From: Methylobacter sp.
GTDB lineage: Bacteria; Pseudomonadota; Gammaproteobacteria; Methylococcales; Methylomonadaceae
Assembly: GCF_030680395.1 (NCBI RefSeq)
Contig: NZ_JAUXVR010000024.1
Location: 1-64,000 of the forward strand
DNA: 64,000 nt
Reading direction: 5' to 3'
The position numbers and the translations under genes were made by a program. Positions 39,170 through 58,453 of the stretch are shown here, piece after piece. The first letter of the stretch is position 1. The number at the start of each line of letters is the position of its first letter. The notes under the pieces were generated by a model that ran no database searches, had not been told where the DNA came from, and saw nothing but the letters and a program-made list of their open reading frames with translations.

Positions 39170-39318
39170 GTTTGCTACAATGAAAATGAAGAAATAGGTT
39201 TCTAGATTAGAAGTGCGATACAGAAAAATAATTAGGCTATACTTAGTCAGTTAAATGTAGGACGCTGTATGTTCGTACGGAGTTTTGCTTTGAAAATTAG
39301 AGATTAATGGAGAAAACA

Positions 39319-39872: not shown

Positions 39873-41981
39873 ATGTCTATTGATATGTCACAATTCCATC
39901 AAGTCTTTTTTGAAGAATGTTTCGAAGGACTGGAAGCAATGGAGTCAGGATTGTTAACGCTCGATATGGGGGATATTGATTCAGAAATAATCAATACCAT
40001 TTTCAGGGGAGCCCATTCGATAAAAGGCGGCAGTGGAACTTTTGGTTTTACCGTTGTTGCTGAATACACCCATATTATGGAAACCCTGCTTGATGAAATG
40101 CGAGATGGGCGTAGAAAGGTAACTCAGCCTGCAGTAGACGTTTTGCTTGGATCTGTTGATTGTCTCAGAGAGATGTTGACTGCGATACAGAATGAACAAG
40201 ACATTAATAATGCCAGTGTAGGAAAGCATAAAGCAGCTTTGGAAGTTGTGCTTAATGGTGGTTCGATGCCAGAAGAGTCAGTATTTCCAGTTGAGCAGGA
40301 ACTGGTGGATGAAGAGGTTTCTGTTAATGATGCTTCTGATATTGATGAAGAAGAGTCCGTTGGATTAGCAGAGCAGGGCTGGAAAATAGCTTTTTGCCCC
40401 TATTTGGATTTGCTTAAAACCGGCAACGATCCGGTAAGATTATTTCGAGAATTAAATGAGCTAGGTGAATTAACAACTACTGTTAATATTCAGGACGTTC
40501 CTGGCTTTTATGAGTTAGATCCAGAGGAATGCAATATTTCTTGGGATTTAAAAGTTGTCGGGGATATTTCCGGCGATGAAATCAGGGAAATATTTAATTG
40601 GGTTGAAGGCGACTGTGAAATGGAAATTCAGCCTCTTGCTAAAGCCGTAAAATCCCCCCCCGTTGTAAGAAAAATCGATCCTGAACCCGCCGCAGTAATC
40701 ATACCTGATAATCACGCTCCAAAATCCGCTGAGATCAAACCTAAGCCGGTTACGGAAATTAAAAAATCCGATTCTCAAGATTCTGACAATGAAGTAGCAA
40801 AAACTACGGCAAAGGCCAGTTCAATTAGGGTAGATACTGACAAAATTGATACTCTAATCAATATGGTTGGCGAAGTTGTGATCACACAATCTATGTTGGG
40901 TTTAGTTGGTGAGAACTTTAGCATGGATAAAGTTGGTCAACTTAAAAGAGGACTTGCTCAGCTAGAACGGCATACTCGAGACTTACAACAAAGCGTCATG
41001 AATATCCGGATGCTTCCTATTAGCTTCGTTTTTAGCCGATTTCCACGCTTAGTACATGATATTAGCAGTAAATTAGATAAAAAAATTGTTCTGAAACTGG
41101 TCGGAGAAAATACCGAAGTTGATAAAGCCGTCGTTGAGTTGATCAATGATCCATTGGTTCATTTAATTAGGAATAGTCTGGATCATGGTATAGAAATGCC
41201 CGCGGACAGAGTCGCAGCAGGCAAGCCGGAAACAGGAACCATCGAATTAAAAGCATATCACCGTGGCGGCCACATTGTCATAGAAATTATTGACGATGGG
41301 CGTGGATTAGATAAAGATAAATTACTATCAAAAGCCATAGAAAAAGGATTGGTTGAAGAAAATAACCTTCTTACTGAAAAACAGATATTTGAACTCATCT
41401 TTATGCCTGGTTTTTCTACGGCTGAACAACTCACTGATATTTCCGGTCGCGGTGTAGGTATGGATGTTGTGAGAAGGAATATTCTGTCGTTAGGCGGCAA
41501 TATAGAAATTATTTCGGAACTGGGTAAAGGAACGACCATAGCAATCCATTTGCCGTTAACGTTGGCAATTCTTGATGGTCAGTCTGTTGCCGTGGGTGAT
41601 GAGACCTACATTGTGCCGCTAGTTTCTATTATTGAATCAATTAATATTACAGAAAGAATGCTAAACAAGGTTGCAGGTAAAGGGGAGACTTTCCGCCTAC
41701 GCAATGAATATTTACCTGTAATTAGAATGCGCGGAATTTTCAATGTTCATTCGGGCAATCCGACCAAGTCGAAAGAGGGTGTTCTTGTGGTCGTTGAGGG
41801 ACAGGGTGAGTTGTGTTGTTTACTCGTAGATGAGTTATTGGGCCAACAACAGGTTGTTATTAAATCATTGGAAGCAAATTACCGACGGGTGGAAGGCGTT
41901 TCAGGTGCAACTATTTTGGGTGATGGCTCTGTTGCGCTGATTCTAGATGTTCCGGGTTTGGTGCGATTTTCAATCCGCTAA
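39873..41981 (+). CDS. cheA: Chemotaxis histidine kinase CheA
   Basis: Encodes 702 residues. P1 (HPt) domain at 1-105 with phosphorylated H48 (GAHSIKGG). A middle region near 165-250 (WKIAFCPYLD, WDLKVVGD) and an acidic, Pro/Lys linker follow. P3 dimerisation helices begin about 315 (DKIDTLINMVGEVVITQ). The P4 kinase domain has N box (HLIRNSLDHGIE, about 426), G1 (DDGRGLD, about 473) and G2 (GRGVGMDV, about 525). P5, the CheW-binding part, is 560-702. The gap after cheY is 191 bp. Confidence 0.96.
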   Translation: MSIDMSQFHQVFFEECFEGLEAMESGLLTLDMGDIDSEIINTIFRGAHSIKGGSGTFGFTVVAEYTHIMETLLDEMRDGRRKVTQPAVDVLLGSVDCLREMLTAIQNEQDINNASVGKHKAALEVVLNGGSMPEESVFPVEQELVDEEVSVNDASDIDEEESVGLAEQGWKIAFCPYLDLLKTGNDPVRLFRELNELGELTTTVNIQDVPGFYELDPEECNISWDLKVVGDISGDEIREIFNWVEGDCEMEIQPLAKAVKSPPVVRKIDPEPAAVIIPDNHAPKSAEIKPKPVTEIKKSDSQDSDNEVAKTTAKASSIRVDTDKIDTLINMVGEVVITQSMLGLVGENFSMDKVGQLKRGLAQLERHTRDLQQSVMNIRMLPISFVFSRFPRLVHDISSKLDKKIVLKLVGENTEVDKAVVELINDPLVHLIRNSLDHGIEMPADRVAAGKPETGTIELKAYHRGGHIVIEIIDDGRGLDKDKLLSKAIEKGLVEENNLLTEKQIFELIFMPGFSTAEQLTDISGRGVGMDVVRRNILSLGGNIEIISELGKGTTIAIHLPLTLAILDGQSVAVGDETYIVPLVSIIESINITERMLNKVAGKGETFRLRNEYLPVIRMRGIFNVHSGNPTKSKEGVLVVVEGQGELCCLLVDELLGQQQVVIKSLEANYRRVEGVSGATILGDGSVALILDVPGLVRFSIR

Positions 41982-42015: not shown

Positions 42016-42531
42016 ATGGCACAAGAAGCTGAAAATAAAGATATCGATCAATATCACTATAGTAGAAACTTGGATAACGCTGTGCAATATCTGAGTTTTG
42101 CCTTAGGTAAAGAAGAATATGGTGTTGACATTCTTCGAGTACAGGAAATACGGAGTTGGGAGCCTGTTTCCAGAATACCTAATGTTCCTTGCTATGAGAA
42201 AGGTGTTGTCAATTTGCGCGGCTCTATTGTGCCGATCCTCGATTTGAGAGAAAGGTTCAATTTGAGTAAAGCCGAATATACGCCGTTAACAGTAGTTGTC
42301 GTGTTGCAAACCGGAGATAGCAACAAGACACGCATAATGGGTGTTGTTGTTGACTCGGTCTCCGATGTAATTAGTGTAGATAAGACTGAAATTCAAAGTG
42401 CTCCGGATTTTGGAACTAAAGTAAGTAACGAATTTATTAATGGACTGGTATCGGTTAATGAACGCATGGTAATGCTGCTTGATGTGGACAAATTACTGAA
42501 ACTGGAAGAGCTTGATCAGGATGAAAGTTAA
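42016..42531 (+). CDS. cheW: Chemotaxis coupling protein CheW (first copy)
   Basis: Encodes 171 residues. It links receptors to CheA. After about 27 extra N-terminal residues the CheW fold begins (YLSFALGKEEYGVDILRVQEIR), then RIPNVPCYEKGVVNLRGSIVPILDLRERF and a typical GVVVDSVSDVI. It differs in sequence from the second copy at 44972, so the two may pair with different receptors or form the array ring together. Confidence 0.95.
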   Translation: MAQEAENKDIDQYHYSRNLDNAVQYLSFALGKEEYGVDILRVQEIRSWEPVSRIPNVPCYEKGVVNLRGSIVPILDLRERFNLSKAEYTPLTVVVVLQTGDSNKTRIMGVVVDSVSDVISVDKTEIQSAPDFGTKVSNEFINGLVSVNERMVMLLDVDKLLKLEELDQDES

Positions 42532-42591: not shown

Positions 42592-44925
42592 GTGAAGATT
42601 AATATGCCGGTAACTAATAATGAAGTTATTCTTAAAAAGGGTACCATTTTAGTTTCAAGAACCGACTTGATGGGACGTATTACCTACGTCAATGATGCAT
42701 TTGTTGAAACAAGTGGGTTTACCCGTGATGAGTTGATGGGACAGGAACATAATATCGTCCGTCATCCAGACATGCCAGCGGAGGCTTATGAGGACTTATG
42801 GATAACCTTAAAACAACTTAGACCCTGGCAGGGACTGGTGAAGAATAGGTGTAAAAACGGCGATCATTACTGGGTCGAGGCAAATGCCATGCCGTTGTTT
42901 AAAAACGGAAAAGTCTATGAATACCTTTCCGTTCGACATCCTCCAAAGCGCGATGCAATTCCGGCAGCGGAACAGTTGTACAAGAAAATTAGCGCTGGTG
43001 AAGTAAAGTTAAAGTCAACCGGTTTAGGGACGATATCTAAATCAATTAGCGAAATTGCAATAGCGAAAAAGAATGCTTTTGTGGTGATCGCTTTCTTGAC
43101 CCCTATCTTTTTTCTGATGTATCGATTGTTCTTGACGCAAGAGTATGTTTTGTTAGCGGGTGTTGCCTTGTTAGCCATAACGGCATCGGCCCTCAGTATC
43201 AATATGACCAAGGTAATAACCGACACGCTGGAAACTGCCATTACTATTTGCTACCGGCTTAGCAGTGGTAGTTTCGGAAATAAGGTGAACCTGAAACGAG
43301 AAGATCAGCTGGGTGATTTCCTGCGTGGTTTGTATTGTATGGAAGTGAAGCTGGGTGTGGACTTGGCTGATTTCAAGCAAGGTCTAGCAGAATCGAAACG
43401 GATTACTCAGGCTCTGGACAACGTTCAATCTCCTGTCATGGTAGCGAATAAGAACTTTGAAATTATTTACATGAACGATAGCGTTCAGAAGATGTTCAAG
43501 ACCGCAGAAAGCGATATTCGTAAACAATTACCTGGTTTTTCCTCCGATAAATTGATGGGTTCCAATGTTGAGTTATATCACGCTACTATTAAAAGTGGGA
43601 TATTGGAGAAATCACAAGAATCACTTAGATCGCAACTGGTCATTGGCGGTCGGCATCTGAGTATTATCGTTAGCCCTGTTAGTAGCGAGGGCGAACGTAT
43701 TGGTTATGTTGCTGAATGGCAGGATAGAACCCATGAAGTTTTAATTGAGCAAGAAATCGATCAATTGGTGCAGGGCGTTAAAGCCGGTGACTTGAGTGCG
43801 CGTATAAAATTAACTGACCAACAGGGATTCACTAAAGCGCTATCTGCCGGTATCAATGAATTAACGGATGTAATTGAAAGCGTATTTGGCGATGTTAACA
43901 GGGTCATGGAGAACATGGCTGAAGGCGATTTAACTACCGCTATTACCAATGAATACCAAGGTGTTTACGCTGAATGTAAGAATAATATTAACACTACCTT
44001 AGCAAAACTCAGCGAATTTATTATTCAAATCAGGGATGCCGCTGATTTTATAGATAGTTCATCACAAGAGATGGCCAGTGGTAATAACAACCTTTCACAT
44101 CGAGCCGAGCAACAAGCGGCCAGCCTGGAAGAAACGGCCGCCAGTATGGAGGAGTTAGCCAGTACCGTAAAAAATAATGCGCAGAATACAGTTCAAGCGA
44201 CTGAAGTTGTTAATTCGGCAAGTCAATTAGCTCAAAAAGGCGGCGGTGTAGTTAAGTCTGCTATTCTTGCAATGCAGGAAATTAATGAAAGCAGTAATAA
44301 AATCGCTGAAATTATTGGCGTAATTGATGAAATTGCCTTTCAAACTAATCTATTGGCATTAAACGCATCTGTAGAGGCTGCGAGAGCAGGAGAGCAGGGG
44401 CGTGGGTTCTCAGTTGTTGCAACAGAGGTTCGTAATTTAGCTCAACGAAGTGCAACTGCCGCACAGCAAAGTAATGAACTAATCCAAAACAGTGTGCAAA
44501 AAGTTCGTGCCGGAACGGCATTCGTTAATGAAACAGGCGCAGCATTAACTGAAATTGTCGATAGTGTTGCAAAAGTTGGCGACATCGTTGCGCATATTGC
44601 CAGTGCCAGTTCGGAGCAATCGGCGGGTATCGAGCAAGTCAATCAAGCGGTTTCTCAAATGGACGATATTACTCAGCAAAATGCGGCTTTGGCAGAACAG
44701 GCCGCTGCCGGTAGCATTGCCATGAGTGAGCAGTCTACCAACATGACCCAGTTGCTTAGTTTCTTTAGAGTCAATTCAAAGAATACTTCGGCAACGACTA
44801 GATCAGTTGCTCATAGTAAGGCGCCTGTAGCGCCAATAAGAGTAACAGCAAAAAAACCTGTAGTTTCTGTTTTATCTCCAAGTAAGCCTAAAATCGATAG
44901 TAGCGACGAATGGGAAGAGTTTTAA
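42592..44925 (+). CDS. Aer-like chemoreceptor with two PAS domains
   Basis: Encodes 777 residues from a GTG start with AGGTAAGG upstream. Residues 20-120 form a PAS domain with the Aer marks ([51 protein letters not shown]), the FAD-binding aerotaxis type. Two membrane segments at about 161-204, a HAMP-like part, a second PAS at about 271-380, then a second linker ([16 protein letters not shown]) and the signalling helices with hairpin tip [21 protein letters not shown]. The last residues EWEEF resemble the CheR/CheB-tethering pentapeptide xWxxF. Likely senses redox or oxygen. Confidence 0.93.
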
Positions 44926-44971: not shown

Positions 44972-45463
44972 ATGACAACAGATGTGCAGTCAAATAATAG
45001 TCGGGTAGAGCAATTTCTCACCTTTCAACTTGCAGGCGAAGCGTATGGCGTTGAAATTTTGAAAGTACAAGAGATTCGTGGTTGGGAAGCTGTTCGCGTG
45101 ATACCGAATACACCTGCTTTTGTTAAAGGCGTGTTGAATTTACGCGGATCTGTCGTGCCCATCATAGATTTACGGGAACGATTTTCTCTAGAGCATTTCG
45201 ATTATTCTCCAAAAACGGTTGTTATTGTGCTCTGTGTTGAACATGGTGCAAACCAATTTGTAATGGGCATAGTGGCTGATGCAGTTTCTGATGTGCTGGA
45301 TATTAATTTGGAAGACATCAAAAAAGCCCCAAACTTCGGTTCAAAAATTGATACGCGCTACATGCGAGGTATGCATGTGTATAAGAAAAAAATGATTATG
45401 CTGCTGGACGTTGATAAATTGCTCAATCCCGATGAGGTTGAGGGTATTGAAAGTTTGGTGTGA
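44972..45463 (+). CDS. cheW: Chemotaxis coupling protein CheW (second copy)
   Basis: Encodes 163 residues with the CheW pattern FLTFQLAGEAYGVEILKVQEIRGWEAVRVIPNTPAFVKGVLNLRGSVVPIIDLRERF shortened here to its key parts: YGVEILKVQEIRGW, then KGVLNLRGSVVPIIDLR. The C-terminal helix ends IMLLDVDKLL. AGGAAA lies before the ATG. It sits between the receptor and the ParA-like gene, four bases from the latter. Confidence 0.94.
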   Translation: MTTDVQSNNSRVEQFLTFQLAGEAYGVEILKVQEIRGWEAVRVIPNTPAFVKGVLNLRGSVVPIIDLRERFSLEHFDYSPKTVVIVLCVEHGANQFVMGIVADAVSDVLDINLEDIKKAPNFGSKIDTRYMRGMHVYKKKMIMLLDVDKLLNPDEVEGIESLV

Positions 45464-46805: not shown

Positions 46806-47645
46806 ATGGCCATTGTTGAGAAGGTTCGCGAATTTAAATTCACTGCGGATGACTTTAACTTTTTAAGAAAACTGTCCAATGAACATTCAGGTATTCAGGT
46901 TCCTGATGAAAGATTTGATATGTTTTATTCCAGACTGTCCAAGCGGGTGAGGAAACTTGGATTAACGGATTTTAAGGCGTATTGCCAGTACCTTAAGGAT
47001 TATCCGGATCACGAATTTACTGAATTTATTAATGCTATAACAACTAATTTAACGGCCTTTTTTAGAGAAATGCATCATTTTGATTATGTCCGTGATGTTG
47101 TTATTCCAGAAGTTTTGATGCGGAATAAAACCTCCCGGCAAGTTAGAGTGTGGTCCGCTGGTTGCTCTACTGGTGAAGAGCCTTACTCTCTAGCGATTAC
47201 CTTGTTGGAAAATGTACCTGTTGATTGGGATATCAAAATATTAGCAACTGATTTGGATACTAATGTTTTGAAAACAGCATCGGATGGTATTTACACGGAA
47301 GATCGTGTCAGTGACTTATCAGAAGATATGCTGAAGCGGTGGTTTATGCGAGGTAAATCATCGCAATCCGGTCAAGTAAAAGTAAGACCTCAGTTACAAC
47401 AAATTATTCAGTTTAAAAAGTTAAATTTGATGCAAGACTGGCCGATGAAATGCCATTTTGACTTTATTTTCTGTCGTAATGTTCTTATTTATTTTGATCG
47501 TGAAACGAAGACATTGCTTGCTCAAAGATATGCTCAAATGCTGTCCAGCAAGTCATGGTTATTTATAGGACATTCAGAATCATTAAACCAGCTTTCAAAT
47601 GAATTTGAGTTGGTTGCGTGTACCAGTTACAGGAAAAATTCATAA
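46806..47645 (+). CDS. cheR: Chemoreceptor methyltransferase CheR
   Basis: Encodes 279 residues, full length. It methylates receptor glutamates using SAM. The N-terminal helical domain (DFNFLRKLSNEHSGIQVPDER) is followed by NLTAFFRE, the SAM motif VWSAGCSTGEEPYSLA, LATDLDTNVL and FIFCRNVLIYFD. All are typical and intact. Confidence 0.96.
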   Translation: MAIVEKVREFKFTADDFNFLRKLSNEHSGIQVPDERFDMFYSRLSKRVRKLGLTDFKAYCQYLKDYPDHEFTEFINAITTNLTAFFREMHHFDYVRDVVIPEVLMRNKTSRQVRVWSAGCSTGEEPYSLAITLLENVPVDWDIKILATDLDTNVLKTASDGIYTEDRVSDLSEDMLKRWFMRGKSSQSGQVKVRPQLQQIIQFKKLNLMQDWPMKCHFDFIFCRNVLIYFDRETKTLLAQRYAQMLSSKSWLFIGHSESLNQLSNEFELVACTSYRKNS

Positions 47646-47651
47646 ATACTA

Positions 47652-48290
47652 ATGAGTACTAGCAATGATATTGGTCTACCCTCCATCGACGGTTTTGATC
47701 ACATTAACAGGTATATCGATAAAGAGCGTGGTGTAATTGCCGCAAAGATTTTGCCGGGTGAATACTATGTAACTCAAGATGATGAATTGATTACAACCGT
47801 ATTAGGGTCTTGTATATCGGCATGTATTAGGGACAAGGTGTCAGGCTTAGGTGGAATGAATCATTTTATGTTGCCGGAAACCACAGCCGACAAGCTGAGG
47901 CAAGGTAATGAAGCGGTTGTCGGCAATGCAACCCGATACGGAAATTATGCCATGGAACATTTAATTAATACTATTTTGATAAATGGCGGCAAAAGGAAAA
48001 ATCTGGAAGTTAAAGTATTTGGCGGCGGTAAAATCATTCCAACCTTGACTGATGTTGGCCTTAAAAATATTGACTTTATCCTGGAATATATTGATACAGA
48101 AGGATTGTCCTTATTATCTCAGGATTTAGGCGATATTTATCCCAGAAAAATAATTTATTTTCCTAAGACTGGGAAAGTCGGAATGAAAAAAATCGAGCAT
48201 TTGCATAATGATACAATTGTAAGAAGAGAGCGACAGTACTTTAACAATATTAAAAATGCACCTGTTGAAGGTGATGTTGAGCTTTTTTAA
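47652..48290 (+). CDS. cheD: Chemoreceptor glutamine deamidase CheD
   Basis: Encodes 212 residues, a little longer than average. The catalytic Cys C54 (TVLGSCISACI) and His H71 (GGMNHFMLP) are present, with Thr in NATRYGNYAMEHLI. The protein has 45 extra C-terminal residues after the usual end, and the DNA for the last dozen is repeated 0.6 kb downstream. Six bases after cheR. Confidence 0.95.
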   Translation: MSTSNDIGLPSIDGFDHINRYIDKERGVIAAKILPGEYYVTQDDELITTVLGSCISACIRDKVSGLGGMNHFMLPETTADKLRQGNEAVVGNATRYGNYAMEHLINTILINGGKRKNLEVKVFGGGKIIPTLTDVGLKNIDFILEYIDTEGLSLLSQDLGDIYPRKIIYFPKTGKVGMKKIEHLHNDTIVRRERQYFNNIKNAPVEGDVELF

Positions 48291-48299
48291 GAAGATACA

Positions 48300-48722
48300 A
48301 TGAACAACAAAATACGCGTATTGATTATTGATGATTCATTGTTAATCCGAAAGGTACTAACTGAAATTTTAAATTCCTCTTCAGATATCGAGGTAGTTGG
48401 CACTGCAGAAGACCCTCTTATTGCCAGAGAGATGATCAAAGAATTAAATCCCGATGTATTGACGCTGGACATTGAAATGCCGCGTATGGATGGAATAACT
48501 TTTTTACGCAATTTGATGCGATTGAGACCAATGCCTGTTGTGATGATTTCAGCACTCACAGAAAGTAACGCTGAAGTTACCTTAACTGCTCTGGAGTTGG
48601 GAGCGGTAGACTTTATAGCTAAGCCGACAATGGATGTAGAAAATACACTGAATGACTATGCCGAAGACATAATTGCCAAGGTAAAAGTAGCGTCACAGGC
48701 TAATATTAGAAGGCTTGAATGA
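48300..48722 (+). CDS. CheB receiver-domain-only partial duplicate
   Basis: Encodes 140 residues that match the first 135 or so residues of the full CheB encoded 0.6 kb downstream. The receiver is complete: D11/D12 region (IIDDSLL), phospho-acceptor D57 ([12 protein letters not shown]), ISAL and K107 (IAKP). It ends soon after the receiver with a stop, and the methylesterase domain is missing. The reading frame is intact and its phosphorylation residues are kept, so it could act as a phosphate sink or as a CheY-like output. It may also be a recent remnant. Confidence 0.85.
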
Positions 48723-48903: not shown

Positions 48904-50022
48904 ATGGGTAAGATACGCGTATTGGTTATTGACGATTCAGCATTAATCAGAAAAATACTGACTGAAGTTTTAAGTTCGTCACCTGACATTGAGGTAGTCG
49001 GTACCGCAGCAGATCCTCTTATTGCTAGGGAAATGATTAAACAATTAAATCCGGATGTATTAACGCTGGATATTGAAATGCCGCACATGGACGGGATAAC
49101 TTTCTTAAGCAACTTGATGCGCTTAAGGCCAACTCCGGTTGTGATGATTTCCACGCTTACTGAACATGGTGCAGAGGCTACTTTAAATGCTCTGGCACTA
49201 GGTGCTGTAGATTTTATTGCTAAACCCAAAGTCGATGTTGTTAATACTCTGAATGAGTATGCCGAGGAAATTATTTCCAAGGTCATCGTTGCGGCGCAAG
49301 CAAAAGTAGGAAATGATTACAGTAGAGTGGTCAAACCCAAACACTCTGTAACAACTGTTCCCGAGATTTCAGAAAAACATTCAGTCGATGTGATTCTGAA
49401 AGCGGCACCTATAAAAACACATATTAACTCCACCAATAAAATAATTGCTTTGGGTGCCTCAACAGGTGGAACAGAAGCGATTAAAGCTGTGGTTAAAGGA
49501 TTTCCAGCAGATACCCCGCCTATTTTAATAACGCAACATTTACCCGCTGCATTTAGTGAATCATTTGTTCGGCATATCGGGCTTGCAACGGAAATGTCAG
49601 CTTGTATTCCCAAACATGGCCAAATCGTTGAACCGGGTAATATTTATCTTTCACCTGGAGACAGGCACATGCTGGTGATTAGAGAAGGGAATAAATATAT
49701 TATTCATTTGAGCGATGGATTGCCTGTCAATCGTCATAAACCGGCAGTTGATGTACTGTTTCGTTCAGTCGCCCAATGTGCAGGTGCTAATGCCATTGGT
49801 ATACTATTAACAGGCATGGGTGCTGACGGAGCAATGGGCATGAAAGAAATGCATGATGCGGGTGCTAAAACAGTTATTCAGGATGAGCAATCCAGTGTGG
49901 TCTGGGGTATGCCGGGCGCTGCATTCAAGTTGGGGTGTACTGACTATGTGGTATCGTTAGAAGAAGTTTCGCATAAAGTGTTAAGCTTGGTTAAAGCTGG
50001 CAGTAGTGGTAAGGCTCTCTAA
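48904..50022 (+). CDS. cheB: Protein-glutamate methylesterase CheB
   Basis: Encodes 372 residues. The N-terminal receiver has phospho-acceptor D56 ([12 protein letters not shown]). The C-terminal methylesterase shows the catalytic triad: S186 in GASTGGTEA, H212 in TQHLP and D308 in GMGADGAMG. A low-complexity linker of about 50 residues joins them. It removes methyl groups from receptors and, with CheD, deamidates glutamines. No strong ribosome binding site; GAGTGAATTT precedes the ATG. Confidence 0.96.
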   Translation: MGKIRVLVIDDSALIRKILTEVLSSSPDIEVVGTAADPLIAREMIKQLNPDVLTLDIEMPHMDGITFLSNLMRLRPTPVVMISTLTEHGAEATLNALALGAVDFIAKPKVDVVNTLNEYAEEIISKVIVAAQAKVGNDYSRVVKPKHSVTTVPEISEKHSVDVILKAAPIKTHINSTNKIIALGASTGGTEAIKAVVKGFPADTPPILITQHLPAAFSESFVRHIGLATEMSACIPKHGQIVEPGNIYLSPGDRHMLVIREGNKYIIHLSDGLPVNRHKPAVDVLFRSVAQCAGANAIGILLTGMGADGAMGMKEMHDAGAKTVIQDEQSSVVWGMPGAAFKLGCTDYVVSLEEVSHKVLSLVKAGSSGKAL

Positions 50023-50167: not shown

Positions 50168-50776
50168 ATGACTAATCAGACTAAATCACAATTTATTGCA
50201 GTCGCTTCAATTACCTCGGAGTTAAGTGCAGTTATGGTGGTAGCTAAGGAAATATCATTAGCGGCGGCCAATGCCAAGGCTATTGCATTTAGGGCTGGAG
50301 ATAAAGCAAAAGGATTTCAGCCGATTACTGACTTTATTAATGAATTGGCTAAAGAAACAATTGAACTGGTTACTAATATCAATATATATGCGTTGGTGTT
50401 ATATCGATTGACTGTCGATGAATTCCAAAAAACGGCTGCTTATAATAAATTCGAGTTGGCAGCAAAAATGGCTGAAGGGGCCGTTTATGCCAAATCTATG
50501 CAGGAGCCGGTAGATCATGCAAGGCTTTCCATGCAAGATTGCCAGAGACAGTTTAAACGGGATGTGTCGCAACTGCTAGGTCAACTTGAGGCCGTGATGC
50601 ATCATGCGCGTGCCGCGCGGGTTATTGCCGCAAACTCAAGAATTGAAGCATCACAGGCGGGTGAATATTTACAGAGCCTGCAAGCAGTTGCTGAAAGTGT
50701 AGATAAAGCTGCACATACCATTCATGATAATGTGCAGCGGTGCAGAATCGCATTATCCATTTATCGCAATAGCTGA
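50168..50776 (+). CDS. Soluble protein with chemoreceptor-like hairpin segments
   Basis: Encodes 202 residues, predicted nearly all helical, without membrane segments or a ligand domain. Two stretches resemble the hairpin tip of methyl-accepting proteins: EISLAAANAKAIAFRAGDKAKGFQPITDF near residues 28-56 and AARVIAANSRIEASQAGEYL near 149-168 (compare [19 protein letters not shown] in the nearby receptor). I do not know a named family. It stands between cheB and the ODP gene, 30 bp from the latter. It may be a receptor-like adaptor that carries the ODP signal to CheA. Function is inferred only. Confidence 0.72.
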   Translation: MTNQTKSQFIAVASITSELSAVMVVAKEISLAAANAKAIAFRAGDKAKGFQPITDFINELAKETIELVTNINIYALVLYRLTVDEFQKTAAYNKFELAAKMAEGAVYAKSMQEPVDHARLSMQDCQRQFKRDVSQLLGQLEAVMHHARAARVIAANSRIEASQAGEYLQSLQAVAESVDKAAHTIHDNVQRCRIALSIYRNS

Positions 50777-50806
50777 ATAGCTGCTAACACAGAAGGCTTG
50801 TTTTTT

Positions 50807-51535
50807 ATGAAAATGACCAAGATATATGAAGGATCGCACCAATGGATTATGTTTGGAAGGGATGAAGGCAAGCCCGGTAATATAGTCGATACCAACCAAT
50901 ATGTAGTACGCACGGCAAACCGCTGTCTGCTTTTGGATCCAGGCGGTGCCGAGTTGTTTGCCCCGATGATGGCGGCTGTGTTGCATCATGCTCCTGTGGA
51001 TCAAATAACGGATCTGTTCGCTTCGCATCAAGATCCTGACGTGATCTCATCATTGGGCTTATGGGATCAGGCCTTAACAAATGCCAAGCTCCATGCTCCG
51101 GCTATTTGGGAAGGTTTCTTACGGCATTACAGCTGTGAATCAATAGAATATGTTCCTATTCCAGATAATGGCGGAACAATTAAATTAGAGTCTGTGGAAT
51201 TGCAGATTATTCCAGCCCATTATTTGCATTCATCCGGCAATTTTCATGTCTATGATCCGCAAGCCAAGATTTTGATGTCAGGTGATGTTGGGGCTGCTAT
51301 CGAAGGGCCTGATTCTCCTGTGTTTGTCGATAATTTCGCTGCGCATGTTGAAAAAATGCGTTATTGGCATCAACGATGGATGCCGTCAAATCAGGCAAAA
51401 AGAGTATGGATTGAGCGGGTAAGAAATCTTGATATTGATATTTTGGCTCCACAGCATGGGCGGATGTTTAAGGGTGATGATGTCAAACGGTTTTTAGACT
51501 GGTTTGATGCTTTACAGGTAGGTATTGCTGTTTAA
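50807..51535 (+). CDS. ODP-type metallo-beta-lactamase-fold diiron protein
   Basis: Encodes 242 residues from the ATG at 50807 (AGAAGG upstream; a TTG at 50798 is less likely). Metal ligands of the flavodiiron kind are visible: H74, D76, D78 (SHQDPD), H138 (PAHYLHS), D160 (LMSGDVG) and H217 (APQHG). The flavodoxin domain of flavodiiron proteins is missing, so it is not a complete oxygen or NO reductase. Short proteins of this type (ODP, oxygen-binding diiron protein) are known as oxygen sensors in chemotaxis of Treponema denticola. The place at the end of a che cluster supports the same role. Confidence 0.87.
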   Translation: MKMTKIYEGSHQWIMFGRDEGKPGNIVDTNQYVVRTANRCLLLDPGGAELFAPMMAAVLHHAPVDQITDLFASHQDPDVISSLGLWDQALTNAKLHAPAIWEGFLRHYSCESIEYVPIPDNGGTIKLESVELQIIPAHYLHSSGNFHVYDPQAKILMSGDVGAAIEGPDSPVFVDNFAAHVEKMRYWHQRWMPSNQAKRVWIERVRNLDIDILAPQHGRMFKGDDVKRFLDWFDALQVGIAV

Positions 51536-54388: not shown

Positions 54389-55288
54389 TTATTCCTCTTC
54401 TAAGGTTTTTCGGGCTTGTTCCAACAACACGCGTTGCTCATCATCCATCTCGGGAAACTCAAGGTCGAGATCGCGCAATGTCGTGGTGACAATGTCGGCG
54501 ACCACGGCTCGAGTCGCCCATTTGTCGTCGGCCGGCACAATATACCAGGGCGCCCATTTGGTGCTGGTTGCGCTGATGGCTTTTTCGTAGGCGTCGACAT
54601 AATCGTCCCAGTAGCCGCGCTCGTTAAGATCGGCAAGTGAAAATTTCCAGTTTTTTTCGGCTCGTTCCAGCCTGTCCATGAATCGCTGTTTCTGTTCTTC
54701 CTTGGAGACGTGCAGAAAAAACTTCAACACGACCGTGCCGTTGCGCACCAGATGACGCTCGAAGGCGTTGATGTCGTCATAGCGATCCTGCCAAAACGCC
54801 TTGCCGTGCTTGCCGTCCGGAAGTTTTTGTTGTTCCAGCATGTCTTTGTGGACTTTGACCACCAGCACGTCTTCGTAGTAGGAACGGTTGAAAATGCCGA
54901 TGCGGCCGCGCTCGGGCAGGGATTTCATATAACGCCAGAGGAAGTTATGGTCCAGTTCTTCGGCCGACGGCTTTTTGAAGCTGAAAACCTGGCAGCCCTG
55001 AGGATTGACGCCCGACATGACGTGCCTGATGGTGCCGTCCTTTCCCGCCGCATCCATGGCCTGCAACACGATCAACAAGGCGTAGCGGTCATCGGCGTAA
55101 AGCAATTGCTGGCATTCGGACAGCTCTTCAATGCTGGTTTGCAAAACCTCGTTTGCTCTTTCCTTAACGAACTTCTTACCTGCGGATTTGAATTCATCGG
55201 TTTGCTCCCAGCCGGTATGGTAATCCTTGAGCCGGATTTTTGTATCCGGCTTAACCTTGAACAAATCAATAACGTCTTTTCTAATCAT
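54389..55288 (-). CDS. PPK2 family polyphosphate kinase
   Basis: Encodes 299 residues. It transfers phosphate between polyphosphate and nucleotides. Walker A-like QAMDAAGKDGTIRHV near residue 80, the lid and substrate loops KPSAEELDHNFLWRY and GIFNRSYYEDVLVVKVH, and a typical NERGYWDDYVDAYEKAI stretch are visible. The shape fits the short single-domain PPK2 forms (polyphosphate:nucleotide phosphotransferase). AAGGAG stands before the ATG. It follows subunit A of the V-type ATPase by 32 bases in the same direction. Confidence 0.92.
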   Translation of the reverse strand: MIRKDVIDLFKVKPDTKIRLKDYHTGWEQTDEFKSAGKKFVKERANEVLQTSIEELSECQQLLYADDRYALLIVLQAMDAAGKDGTIRHVMSGVNPQGCQVFSFKKPSAEELDHNFLWRYMKSLPERGRIGIFNRSYYEDVLVVKVHKDMLEQQKLPDGKHGKAFWQDRYDDINAFERHLVRNGTVVLKFFLHVSKEEQKQRFMDRLERAEKNWKFSLADLNERGYWDDYVDAYEKAISATSTKWAPWYIVPADDKWATRAVVADIVTTTLRDLDLEFPEMDDEQRVLLEQARKTLEEE

Positions 55289-55320: not shown

Positions 55321-57129
55321 TTAGGCGTTATGGCCCGGTAAATATTGATCGGCAAGTTGTTCGATGTCTTTGCCGTAGCGTTCGTAATCCGGCGAATCGG
55401 GACGGCTGTAATTCCAGTTTTTATAGAGGCCGGTCAGCTTGGTAAAAAAATCCCGGGCTTCGTTTTTGTCTTGAAACTTGAATTCCGCCACAACCAGCTT
55501 TTTTAACACCTTGAAACTGGCCAGCTGGCGCTCGCGGGGCATGCAGGCATCGACTTCGTCAAAAGCATCCTGCTGCAAATAAACCATGTCCAGCAGCATC
55601 GATTTTTGCCATTCGATGAAATCTTCCAGGGTAATGCCTTCTTCGCCGGTGACCTGCATGATTTGATAAATGCCGTCGCCGCGCTCCAGCAGGGTCATCA
55701 TGTTTTTAACATCATTAACCCACTGTGCATTGAGTTCTTTGGTAAACCAGGGCGCCAATTGATCCAGGTAGCGGGACCACGACAGCAGCGGATCGATGGC
55801 CGGATAAAAGCGTTTGTAGGCGCGATCGGCGGACAAGCCGAGGAAGGTCTTGACGGTGCCGAGCGTGGACTGGGTGACCGGTTCCTCGAAATTGCCTCCC
55901 GCCGGAGACACCGTGCCAATCAAGGTCAGCGTGCCGGTGGAGCCGTCGGCGCAACGGATTACGCCGGCGCGCTCGTAAAGATTCTTGATCGCGGAATCGA
56001 GATAGGCCGGGAATGCTTCTTCGCCGGGGATTTCCTCCATCCTGCCCGACGTTTCGCGCATCGCCTGCGCCCAGCGCGACGTCGAGTCGGCAATCAGCAA
56101 CACGTCGTAGCCCATTTGGCGGAAATATTCCCCCAGCGTGATACCGGTGTAGATTGATGCTTCGCGGGCCGCGACCGGCATTGAGGAGGTGTTGCAGATA
56201 ATGATGGTGCGATCCATTAACGTGCCGCCGGTGCGGGGATCGGCCGTTTCCGGGTATTCGTGGATGGTTTCGACGACTTCCCCGGCGCGTTCGCCGCAAG
56301 CGACAATGATCACGATGTCGACGCTGGAGTAGCGCGCGATCAGGCTCTGCAAAACCGTCTTGCCGGCGCCGAACGGCCCTGGGATGCAGCCCGTGCCGCC
56401 TTGGGCAATCGGGAAAAAAGTGTCGATGATGCGGGTGGCGGTGGTCAGCGGTTTCGATGGGAACTGCCGCTCAATAAAACGCCTGCGCAGCAGGTTCTCT
56501 GGAATCGGACGCCGGATCGGCCAGCGGCACGCCATGGTCAATTCCTTTTCTTCACCGTTCGACGTCTTGTAGCGCGCCACAACCTCGTTAATGGAAAAAC
56601 TGCCGCCTCGAATCCAGGTCAACTGGACAGGTTCCGCTTCATTGAAAGGAACCATGATCTTGTGTTTGAACGGGCCTTCGGGCACCGATCCTAGCACGCC
56701 GCCGGGAGGCAAGGAATCGCCTATCTCCGCATCCGGCGTAAACTGCCATTTTTTATCGGGATCAAGCGGCGGCATTATGATGCCGCGCGGCAGAAAAAAA
56801 CCGTATTTTTGCGCCAGGCCGTGCAAAGGGTTAAGCAAGCCGTCGAAAACCTGGCCCAGCAGCCCGGGGCCCAAGGTTGCTGAAAGCATTTCACCGGACA
56901 GCTCCACCCGGTCGCCAACCCGCACGCCGCGGGTATCCTCGAACACCTGCATGTCTGCGGTGCGTCCCCGCACCCGAAGGATTTCGGCCTTCAGCCGTTC
57001 TTCGCCGACGCAGACGTAGCCGACTTCGTTTTTCATCACTTCGGAGGCTTCGTCAAACTCGATCAGGACCAGACTTTCCTTGACGCCTACCACGGTCGCA
57101 TAGACGGCGCCGGTATTTTCATTGGACAT
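55321..57129 (-). CDS. atpA: V/A-type ATP synthase/ATPase catalytic subunit A
   Basis: Encodes 602 residues. It is the nucleotide-hydrolysing subunit of the V/A-type rotary ATPase. Walker A is GPFGAGKTVLQS near residue 247, preceded by the non-homologous insertion typical of A subunits (PPGGVLGSVPEGPFKHKI). GERAGEVVE and LLIADSTSRWAQAMRE are intact. Last ATPase gene in this operon, starting 11 bases inside the DUF2764 gene's end. Confidence 0.96.
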   Translation of the reverse strand: MSNENTGAVYATVVGVKESLVLIEFDEASEVMKNEVGYVCVGEERLKAEILRVRGRTADMQVFEDTRGVRVGDRVELSGEMLSATLGPGLLGQVFDGLLNPLHGLAQKYGFFLPRGIIMPPLDPDKKWQFTPDAEIGDSLPPGGVLGSVPEGPFKHKIMVPFNEAEPVQLTWIRGGSFSINEVVARYKTSNGEEKELTMACRWPIRRPIPENLLRRRFIERQFPSKPLTTATRIIDTFFPIAQGGTGCIPGPFGAGKTVLQSLIARYSSVDIVIIVACGERAGEVVETIHEYPETADPRTGGTLMDRTIIICNTSSMPVAAREASIYTGITLGEYFRQMGYDVLLIADSTSRWAQAMRETSGRMEEIPGEEAFPAYLDSAIKNLYERAGVIRCADGSTGTLTLIGTVSPAGGNFEEPVTQSTLGTVKTFLGLSADRAYKRFYPAIDPLLSWSRYLDQLAPWFTKELNAQWVNDVKNMMTLLERGDGIYQIMQVTGEEGITLEDFIEWQKSMLLDMVYLQQDAFDEVDACMPRERQLASFKVLKKLVVAEFKFQDKNEARDFFTKLTGLYKNWNYSRPDSPDYERYGKDIEQLADQYLPGHNA

Positions 57130-57778
57130 GTTTTATCTCCTCGATCAATACTTGGAAGCGTTGTTTCGCGGCGCTTGCATCGCGTTGTAGCCAAGCCTGC
57201 AAAATATCCCATTTGAATACAAAGGCGGTGATCGCTTCGAAACCGAAAGGACGCATATCACCCAAACGGGACAGCTTCCGCCATACGGTATCCATCAGCA
57301 GGCGGTCCAACGCCATCGCATCGGCAGCCGCCAGATAGCTGTCGGCTTCGTTCACCCAGGGATAAACCGTGCCCAGGCGAAAATCGGCTGCATCCCAATG
57401 CGCTTCGATATGCTTGACCCAATGGCCGACGCCCCAGCCTCCAGTGTATTGCTCCGGATCACGTCCGGCTTGCCTGATGCGCAGTGCGGCAACAACGGTT
57501 TGTATATCCAGTCGGTATTCCACGAACTCCCGTAACACCGGTTCGCTTATGCGTTGCAGCCCAGTCTTATATTGTGCGGCGATATTGCCGCCGCACAATT
57601 TGCCGGCAGACAGCCGCCAACCGGCCAGAAATTCAGCCTGGAAGATTTGCCGGCTTTGATCCGTCTCCAGCATGCGCAAACGCTGTTCCAGGCGCAAACG
57701 GCTTAGGGGAAGCCGCTCGGCATCCGCGAAATAGGGCAGGTGCGGAAAACTGGCTACGACCGTATAGTAATTCGTCAT
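57119..57778 (-). CDS. DUF2764 protein of V-type ATPase operons
   Basis: Encodes 219 residues from the ATG at 57778 (four residues longer from 57790). It begins NYYTVVASFPHLPYF and carries FVEYRLDIQTVVAALRIRQAGRDP and VFKWDILQAWL. It is recognised as the DUF2764 family found between the E and A genes of bacterial V-type ATPases. It probably fills the place of subunit C, linking the rotor and membrane parts. Overlaps subunit A by 11 bases. Confidence 0.87.
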   Translation of the reverse strand: MTNYYTVVASFPHLPYFADAERLPLSRLRLEQRLRMLETDQSRQIFQAEFLAGWRLSAGKLCGGNIAAQYKTGLQRISEPVLREFVEYRLDIQTVVAALRIRQAGRDPEQYTGGWGVGHWVKHIEAHWDAADFRLGTVYPWVNEADSYLAAADAMALDRLLMDTVWRKLSRLGDMRPFGFEAITAFVFKWDILQAWLQRDASAAKQRFQVLIEEIKHVQ

Positions 57779-57793
57779 GGCTGGGGACATCCT

Positions 57794-58453
57794 TTATTCC
57801 GCACCCGTCAAAATGGCCTGGAAACGTGGCAGTAAGTGTGCGGCAAGCATTTTGGATATCGCCTTGTCGGACAAATCGATTTCCAGTTGCTCGCCGACCA
57901 AGCGCACCTTCGCGCCGCCTTCGGTGACGCTGGATGGGATCAATTCAACACCCTCGCGCAACATATCGCTGGAAAGGCTCAAGATGGTCTGTTTACCCAG
58001 ATCGCGCAGCTTTGGATCGGGCTTTCCGGTCAATAGGGCTTCGGACAGCAGAATTTGAATTTGTTTGTCTTTGATAAATTCTTCCGCGCTGTGTCCGGCC
58101 AATACTAACACCAGGTTTTTCATCAACTCCCGATCCTGCGTCGCCGTGGTGACCAAACGGCGGACAAAGGTCTCGAATGCGGCAGAGACGCCGTTCTTCA
58201 ACCGCAATACGGTGTCGCGGGCAGAAATCTTTAAGGCTTCCTGTGCTGCGGCCTGCTCGGCTTTGATATCCGCCGTGGCTTTAGCGCGCAATTGCTCGAC
58301 CTGTTTTTGCGCGTCGGCCACTAATTGCGAGGCTTTCGCTTCCGCTTCCGCAAGAATGCGCGCGGCTTCCAGATTGGCGCTTTGCACGCCCTGGTCGCGG
58401 ATTCTGTCGATCAGCGCTTGTACGCTGGACTCAGTGTTAATTAGCTCGGTCAT
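57794..58453 (-). CDS. atpE: V/A-type ATPase subunit E (peripheral stalk)
   Basis: Encodes 219 residues. Residues 20-110 form the long Ala/Glu/Lys-rich helix of the stalk (LEAARILAEAEAKASQLVADAQKQVEQLRAKA), followed by a globular end that binds the A/B head (AFETFVRRLVTTATQDRELMKNLVLVL). The length and pattern fit subunit E of bacterial V-type ATPases. Its partner G/H subunit is not found in this operon. Confidence 0.88.
   Translation of the reverse strand: MTELINTESSVQALIDRIRDQGVQSANLEAARILAEAEAKASQLVADAQKQVEQLRAKATADIKAEQAAAQEALKISARDTVLRLKNGVSAAFETFVRRLVTTATQDRELMKNLVLVLAGHSAEEFIKDKQIQILLSEALLTGKPDPKLRDLGKQTILSLSSDMLREGVELIPSSVTEGGAKVRLVGEQLEIDLSDKAISKMLAAHLLPRFQAILTGAE

Follow-up and report, generated by a model that had tools for sequence, protein, structure and literature searches.

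How a soluble diiron protein could pass a signal to a chemotaxis array is the question raised by two neighbouring genes of Methylobacter sp. (contig NZ_JAUXVR010000024.1; the whole stretch of 64,000 nt that was analysed is called the window). The first gene encodes a short receptor-like protein (RL) and the second one a protein of the ODP family. Reading of the open reading frames placed both where the initial annotation had put them:

50168..50776 (stop codon included), forward strand: RL gene, 202 aa, receptor-like protein, soluble, with two segments resembling the MCP tip (open reading frame, homologues)
50807..51535, forward strand: ODP-family diiron protein, 242 aa from the ATG (PF19583, 1.7e-71; PDB 6qrq, 6.6e-62)

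With a probability of roughly 70%, the two genes encode a cytoplasmic module that feeds oxygen (or iron/redox state) into CheA/CheW arrays; RL would act in this module as a single-chain mimic of the receptor tip.

RL and ODP close a chemotaxis gene cluster

The RL stop codon and the ATG of the ODP gene are separated by 30 nt. An alternative start, TTG at 50798, would give an ODP of 245 aa; the residue numbers used earlier for the ODP agree with the ATG start. PF19583 (ODP family beta lactamase) is covered in full by the window ODP (1-194 of 194, 240.6 bits), which in its family membership shows no difference to other ODPs, and the protein also matches the solved ODP chain 6qrq. No flavodoxin domain was found by Pfam, where at E-values up to 1 only the ODP and Lactamase_B families were listed, in agreement with the previous description of an ODP without flavodoxin domain.

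For RL, the match to MCPsignal (PF00015) covers residues 12-72 and with 23 bits lies below the Pfam cut-off of 34.6, while in the deep RL alignment 23 of the 27 members gave MCPsignal at E-values up to 0.01 (best 1.5e-10). Neither a sensing domain nor a HAMP domain was detected by Pfam in the window RL, and no clear transmembrane segment is present. The highest hydropathy over 19 residues is 1.65, starting from residue 8, which is borderline; a membrane anchor was rejected, since this stretch contains polar and charged residues both here and in relatives. RL is thus soluble and free of a sensing domain, as had been proposed. Of the properties of an MCP it has the tip homology, with MCPsignal below the cut-off and no sensing, transmembrane or HAMP part. 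The gene is under purifying selection, with dN/dS values of 0 to 0.07 in five of seven pairwise comparisons (the other two gave no value), and the RL protein of Methylobacter tundripaludum SV96 is 100% identical to that of the window.

The pair closes a chemotaxis cluster that begins at a CheY-like gene at 39307 and then holds genes for CheA, two CheW-like proteins, a PAS receptor, a ParA-like ATPase, a STAS protein, CheR, CheD, a lone receiver and CheB. The CheY-like and CheW-like names come from reading the sequence. The main components are:

39873..41981, forward strand: CheA (Hpt, H-kinase_dim, HATPase_c and CheW domains)
42016..42531, forward strand: CheW-like protein (read from the sequence)
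42592..44925, forward strand: conventional chemoreceptor with PAS domains and HAMP (PF00015, PAS families, HAMP_2)
44972..45463, forward strand: second CheW-like protein (read from the sequence)
46806-47645, forward strand: CheR (PF01739/PF03705)
47652-48290, forward strand: CheD (PF03975)
48904..50022, forward strand: CheB, 145 nt upstream of RL (PF00072, PF01339)

The PAS domains of the receptor encoded at 42592-44925 presumably resemble those of aerotaxis receptors (Aer-like), so that the cluster may combine two inputs for oxygen or redox state, the PAS receptor and RL/ODP. The lone receiver protein (48300-48722) is similar to the receiver part of CheB, whose gene comes next. Such a gene directly before CheB was also seen in 28 of the 80 loci from named records, i.e., the best 80 of 160 relatives (Methylococcales or records titled 'proteobacterium', 'Gammaproteobacteria' or 'bacterium'; at least 67% identity). 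Further downstream in the window lie genes that we take to encode V-type ATPase subunits (55321-58453, reverse strand) and, beside them, presumably a polyphosphate kinase 2 (54389-55288).

All 71 RL-carrying genomes examined encode a CheA dimerisation domain, compared with 205 of 315 genomes of the class in which this domain exceeded the cut-off; because the RL genomes are related to each other, this counts as supporting evidence only. In 18 of the same best 80 of 160 relatives no che-like gene was found on the same strand, some of these stretches being short.

RL contains two receptor tip segments

The deep RL alignment (27 members) was split into residues 1-100 and 103-202, and both halves were compared with a profile of the MCP tip using hhalign. 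The N-terminal half matched with a score of 72.7 (E 3.7e-13) and the C-terminal half with 43.1 (E 1.2e-7), far above the maxima of 50 column shuffles each (19.0 and 15.9, respectively) and above the reversed profiles (12.2 and 15.2). The claim of two segments that resemble the receptor hairpin tip is therefore confirmed. When compared directly, the two halves scored 23.1, above the shuffles (13.1) and not far above the reversed control (18.4), so that their homology to each other rests mainly on the common match to the MCP tip.

The first MCP set consisted of 27 windows selected with a motif in which N381, A382, E385, A386, R388, A389, G390, E391, G393, G395 and F396 are prescribed, and its values of 100% at these positions are given by construction. 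As a fair control, 15 non-redundant MCP domains, the receptor of the window among them, were used; E385 is present in 15/15 and R388 in 13/15 of these. With MCPs not chosen by motif the N half scored 68.6 and the C half 34.7. A second tip that is merely a coiled-coil artefact was rejected by column shuffles, reversed profiles and the non-motif MCP set. The conservation along RL shows two peaks, which are the two tips:

50243..50347, forward strand: tip 1, residues 26-60, equivalents of Tsr N381, A382, R388, G390, G395 and F396 kept, E385 replaced by Ile (hhalign, residue tables)
50588..50722, forward strand: tip 2, residues 141-185, equivalents of Tsr E385 and A386 kept, R388 replaced by Gln and F396 by Leu (hhalign, residue tables)

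The residues were placed by alignment to the conserved tip, with numbers that we take to be those of Tsr.

The two tips lost complementary trimer-lock residues

Among the 27 members, tip 1 retains N381 in all, G395 and F396 in 26 each and R388 in 20, but E385 in none. Tip 2 has E385 in 25 members and R388 in only five, carries Leu in place of F396 in 26 and mostly lacks the equivalents of G393, G395 and R388; both E385 and R388 are found together in tip 2 of five members. In the window RL neither half has both residues of the trimer lock.

In a related receptor, ionic locks of the E385-R388' type and stacking of F396 were described between neighbouring dimers of the trimer in the available text of PMC8144572. 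One possible, tentative reading is that RL is an asymmetric one-chain dimer, the halves of which became fixed for two places in the trimer of dimers prior to the spread of the family, and that it acts as a sensor plug-in. If this is true, copies of most RLs could not lock with each other, since a lock takes its E385 from one dimer and its R388 from the adjacent one, and RL would join only mixed trimers with ordinary receptors and put the oxygen state of the ODP on them.

The lost residues would also suit a decoy or cap, the tip of which holds CheW or CheA-P5 off the array, with the state of the ODP setting the free amount and RL never entering trimers. Each half of the window RL lacks the full lock pair, with E385 missing from tip 1 in 27/27 and R388 from tip 2 in 22/27 members. 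No sensing domain was seen by Pfam, and the arms of 36-53 residues seem too short to contain the usual methylation region; both are in line with such a role. However, in 5/27 members E and R occur together in tip 2, and according to the part of PMC7666581 that is available, T. denticola probably incorporates its sensorless receptor into membrane arrays. A decoy is unlikely in our view.

Metal ligands of the ODP

The following positions were assigned by sequence and alignment (ATG numbering):

51026..51040, forward strand: HQDPD metal-binding motif with H74, D76 and D78 (sequence, alignment)
51227..51229, forward strand: His of the LHS motif, H141, equivalent to the flavodiiron LHW His (alignment)

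Aligned to the solved ODP chain as well as to two flavodiiron-like proteins, the window ODP shows the complete ODP ligand set of HxDxD, LHS His, GD Asp and QHG His. The ligands had been given before as H74, D76, D78, H138, D160 and H217. This list stands with the exception of H138: the His of the LHS motif is kept in 8/8 aligned ODP and flavodiiron-like sequences, whereas at the position of H138 (the PAH His) one flavodiiron-like sequence of the same alignment has Pro and the other one Lys, and the ligand is H141. The statement that all flavodiiron iron ligands are kept was too strong, as the flavodiiron-like protein L003 has the motif HLEPDH, where the window ODP and 6qrq have HQDPDV, with Asp for Glu and without the final His.

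The ODP is related to flavodiiron NO/O2 reductases, as is seen from its match to the flavorubredoxin model (2.9e-05). The pair could accordingly sense something besides O2, i.e., nitric oxide, iron or the redox state, and signal by the same route from ODP via RL to CheA. Besides this relationship, the title of a published ODP study, cited in PMC7319448 as far as this paper is available, calls the protein a sensor of Fe(II) and oxygen, which would agree with such an input. We judge a signal other than O2 to be improbable. Methane oxidisers often live at oxygen gradients and the cluster contains a PAS receptor; both speak for oxygen, but neither is decisive.

Predicted fold of RL

AlphaFold with an alignment of 61 sequences predicted four helices for RL (3-47, 50-101, 109-161 and 165-200; pLDDT 88.8, pTM 0.79). 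With the RL sequence alone the helices were 3-102, 106-155 and 161-201 (pLDDT 68.9) and the first turn was lost, so that the prediction depends on an alignment of rather little diversity (67-98% identity). The receptor-like hairpin that was expected earlier is thus present as turns at both tips when the alignment is supplied, and its first turn disappears without it. The tips are at about residues 43-50 and 162-166 and the bundle arms comprise 36-53 residues. If the helices form an up-down-up-down bundle, the turns near 48 and 163 have to lie at the same end, and both tips would then be at one end of a single bundle.

In a Foldseek search the six best matches were designed single-chain helical proteins, which superpose only loosely (TM about 0.45, rmsd about 8.7, one match reaching E 0.001), and the maquette designs among these are presumably four-helix proteins. 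No receptor tip was found near the top, with PilJ, McpS and YfmS from rank 16 on at E 0.09 or worse; since receptor dimers consist of two chains, this comparison with receptors is weak either way.

Among solved structures, the sequence nearest to the RL profile is that of the soluble receptor 3g6b (2.4e-15). This protein (3g6b/3g67), which we take to be Tm14 of Thermotoga maritima and which is presumably a dimer of two chains, has a similar length of 213 aa. RL had been described as far shorter than a receptor, which needs adjusting, as receptors of this length exist. In 3g6b/3g67 there is a single tip mid-chain with long arms (RL 12-77 aligns to 76-141), whereas RL has tips at both positions given above.

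From this similarity it could be argued that RL is an ordinary homodimeric short receptor like 3g6b and that the second tip is a decayed turn without array contact. Tip 2 is indeed less MCP-like (43.1 or 34.7 versus 72.7 or 68.6), most members lack its G393, G395 and R388 equivalents, and only tip 1 of the window protein is detected by Pfam. However, a decayed turn is at odds with E385 in 25/27 and Leu for F396 in 26/27 members and with the second conservation peak, which is tip 2 itself. In addition, tip 1 at residues 43-50 is not placed mid-chain as in the 213-aa chain. We consider this homodimer very unlikely. RL is most likely a single-chain, asymmetric pseudo-dimer of the receptor tip that carries the oxygen/iron state of the ODP to CheA/CheW.

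RL and ODP genes are found side by side in other genomes

RL matches at E 0.001 or better were obtained in 49 of 101 genomes (that of the window and 100 relatives), some of which are ordinary receptors. The relatives contain 54 RL-type loci, of which 50 were read, and the ODP gene lies directly downstream in 49 of these 50 (window included); the exception, L047, is a contig end. These loci include RL paralogues in other che clusters, which share just 17-19% identity with the RL of the window. Multiple RL-ODP pairs, two or three per genome and in different che clusters, occur in eight genomes that belong to the window's genus (L038-L046, L051, L052).

In a sample of 370 Gammaproteobacteria, short RLs could be set apart from receptors in at least 24 genomes, and in 24/24 loci the ODP gene follows downstream, leaving out two second copies (G007, G300). 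The separation was based on E-values of 3.9e-18 or better and frames of 196-321 aa for RL, versus values from 1.9e-15 and mostly long frames for receptors; a 213-aa frame adjoining a known RL (6.7e-18 over positions 5-91) was not counted. As the best 8 candidates per genome were scored in this sample and the best 7 in the phylum sample, both with strict E-values, divergent RLs were missed, and eight further genomes with such RLs were found via the ODP search (L182-L185, L188, L190-L192). In L188, L190 and L192 RL and ODP are located between the CheA gene and a receptor-like gene, an order unlike that of the window.

The phylum sample showed an ODP gene beside 5/5 further short RLs; these were listed only in the window's class, but the class make-up of the sample is not shown and absence elsewhere is thus not established. 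Among the best 80 of 160 relatives, the ODP gene is found within 200 nt in 77 loci and at 380 nt in L141 (78/80 together), the remaining two being contig ends. The methane oxidisers Methylotuvimicrobium buryatense 5G (L136) and Methylomonas sp. LW13 (L152) are among the carriers of the pair. The pair had been seen in the setting of a methane oxidiser, to which it is not special: Pseudoalteromonas xiamenensis and Shewanella aestuarii carry RL and ODP on plasmid records. There RL is annotated as 'chemotaxis protein' or 'hypothetical protein' and the ODP as 'MBL fold metallo-hydrolase'.

A search started from the ODP gave matches at 1e-30 in 65 of 342 genomes, which overlap with the 370-genome class sample. 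All 28 fetched ODP loci with at least 237 bits (at least 45% identity; 29 matches) have RL just upstream, the weakest RL (L185) with 33 bits. No RL was found beside three ODPs below 237 bits (L193, L194 and L001 of the own genome; 3 of 60 such matches). A general partnership of ODPs with RL was rejected on account of these three. The RL-linked ODPs represent the more similar part of the match list within PF19583, apart from the RL-less ODPs examined. The second ODP of the own genome (L001, C18:251529-255110) is 39% identical to the window ODP and is encoded directly before a GGDEF protein, which suggests an ODP input to c-di-GMP signalling.

The side-by-side occurrence elsewhere, which had been proposed as a check, is strongly confirmed by the samples. 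The distance matrices of RL and ODP correlate with r 0.91 (63 pairs); L065 and L077, in which the ODP frame read from stop to stop overlaps the RL frame and the pair is present, and L047 without ODP were left out. Within eight multi-copy genomes the true partners (19 pairs) gave r 0.956, compared to a mean of 0.045 for within-genome swaps, of which 1 in 5000 was as high. This shows that RL and ODP have long been inherited jointly; it is no proof of contact, as correlated distances are also expected for two genes inherited as one unit. That a stray MCP-like fragment and a metallo-hydrolase are neighbours by chance, for which only RL's score below the Pfam cut-off could be cited, is rejected as practically negligible in view of all adjacency counts and the dN/dS of 0 to 0.07.

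Proposed mechanism and comparison with known systems

In the proposed module RL would form a four-helix up-down-up-down bundle, a soluble mimic of a chemoreceptor dimer at its membrane-distal tip. Its two turns, both at one end, would meet CheW and CheA-P5. The opposite end, made up of loop 102-108 and the two termini, would be free, and on this free end the ODP would most likely dock. By analogy with published ODP work, above all on T. denticola, O2 would bind at the diiron site, and the ligation state of the ODP may alter the packing of the RL bundle and hence CheA activity in a mixed array. The tips are specialised, as would be expected if one half constantly points to the trimer axis and the second half to the CheA/CheW side. 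The earlier suggestion of a minimal adaptor that brings a diiron oxygen signal into the CheA/CheW array is supported in part.

The closest known case is T. denticola, where, in the accessible text of PMC7666581, the ODP TDE2498 is genetically coupled to the sensorless MCP homologue TDE2496, which is able to modulate CheA; no obvious density was seen for the ODP in the array, and a peripheral role was suggested. Both systems combine an ODP with a genetically linked receptor that lacks sensing and transmembrane parts. RL has 202 aa and two tips in one chain, whereas TDE2496, which was compared by its description, may have one tip or two. Operons that join ODP and MCP genes, with two different gene orders, are described in the available part of PMC7319448. 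The adjacency counts fit this arrangement of a sensorless receptor gene adjoining an ODP gene.

Two receptor subunits in one chain are likewise known, from the natural single-chain soluble MCP signalling domains of Rhodospirillum centenum and the engineered ones of Tar/Tsr (PMC4692393, in the text available). The engineered proteins repeat the same subunit, whereas RL is minimal, asymmetric and paired with an ODP; it fits a single-chain receptor protein with two specialised halves. DosM of Vibrio cholerae also has two signalling domains but, as far as described in the available part of PMC7534058, it is an extended rod with one at each end that spans two baseplates, while the RL tips are predicted at one end. 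Other unusual array parts, CheWS of T. denticola (PMC10653840) and CheO of Campylobacter (PMC9665402), are not taken as the same thing as RL on the basis of their descriptions in the accessible texts.

Known already are thus the ODP with a sensorless cytoplasmic receptor and single-chain MCP-like proteins, which are mentioned in print. No description of a two-tip ODP-linked protein was found in the literature searched, mostly papers outside subscription. Sensorless cytoplasmic receptors of eight phyla were reportedly coupled to ODP in the 2019 ODP paper, the counts of which may include RL genes. What looks new is the near-obligatory, minimal, two-tip and ODP-linked form with complementary loss of the Tsr E385 and R388 equivalents.

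If the plug-in reading is true, RL and ODP would be a sensor that can be added to existing arrays. As the halves of RL look consistently diverged, comparing or mutating them could test which contacts each position needs, and some of the Gammaproteobacteria that carry the pair can be handled genetically. For the methane oxidisers and other Gammaproteobacteria, the findings suggest a compact route by which the sensing of oxygen (or iron) may enter chemotaxis.
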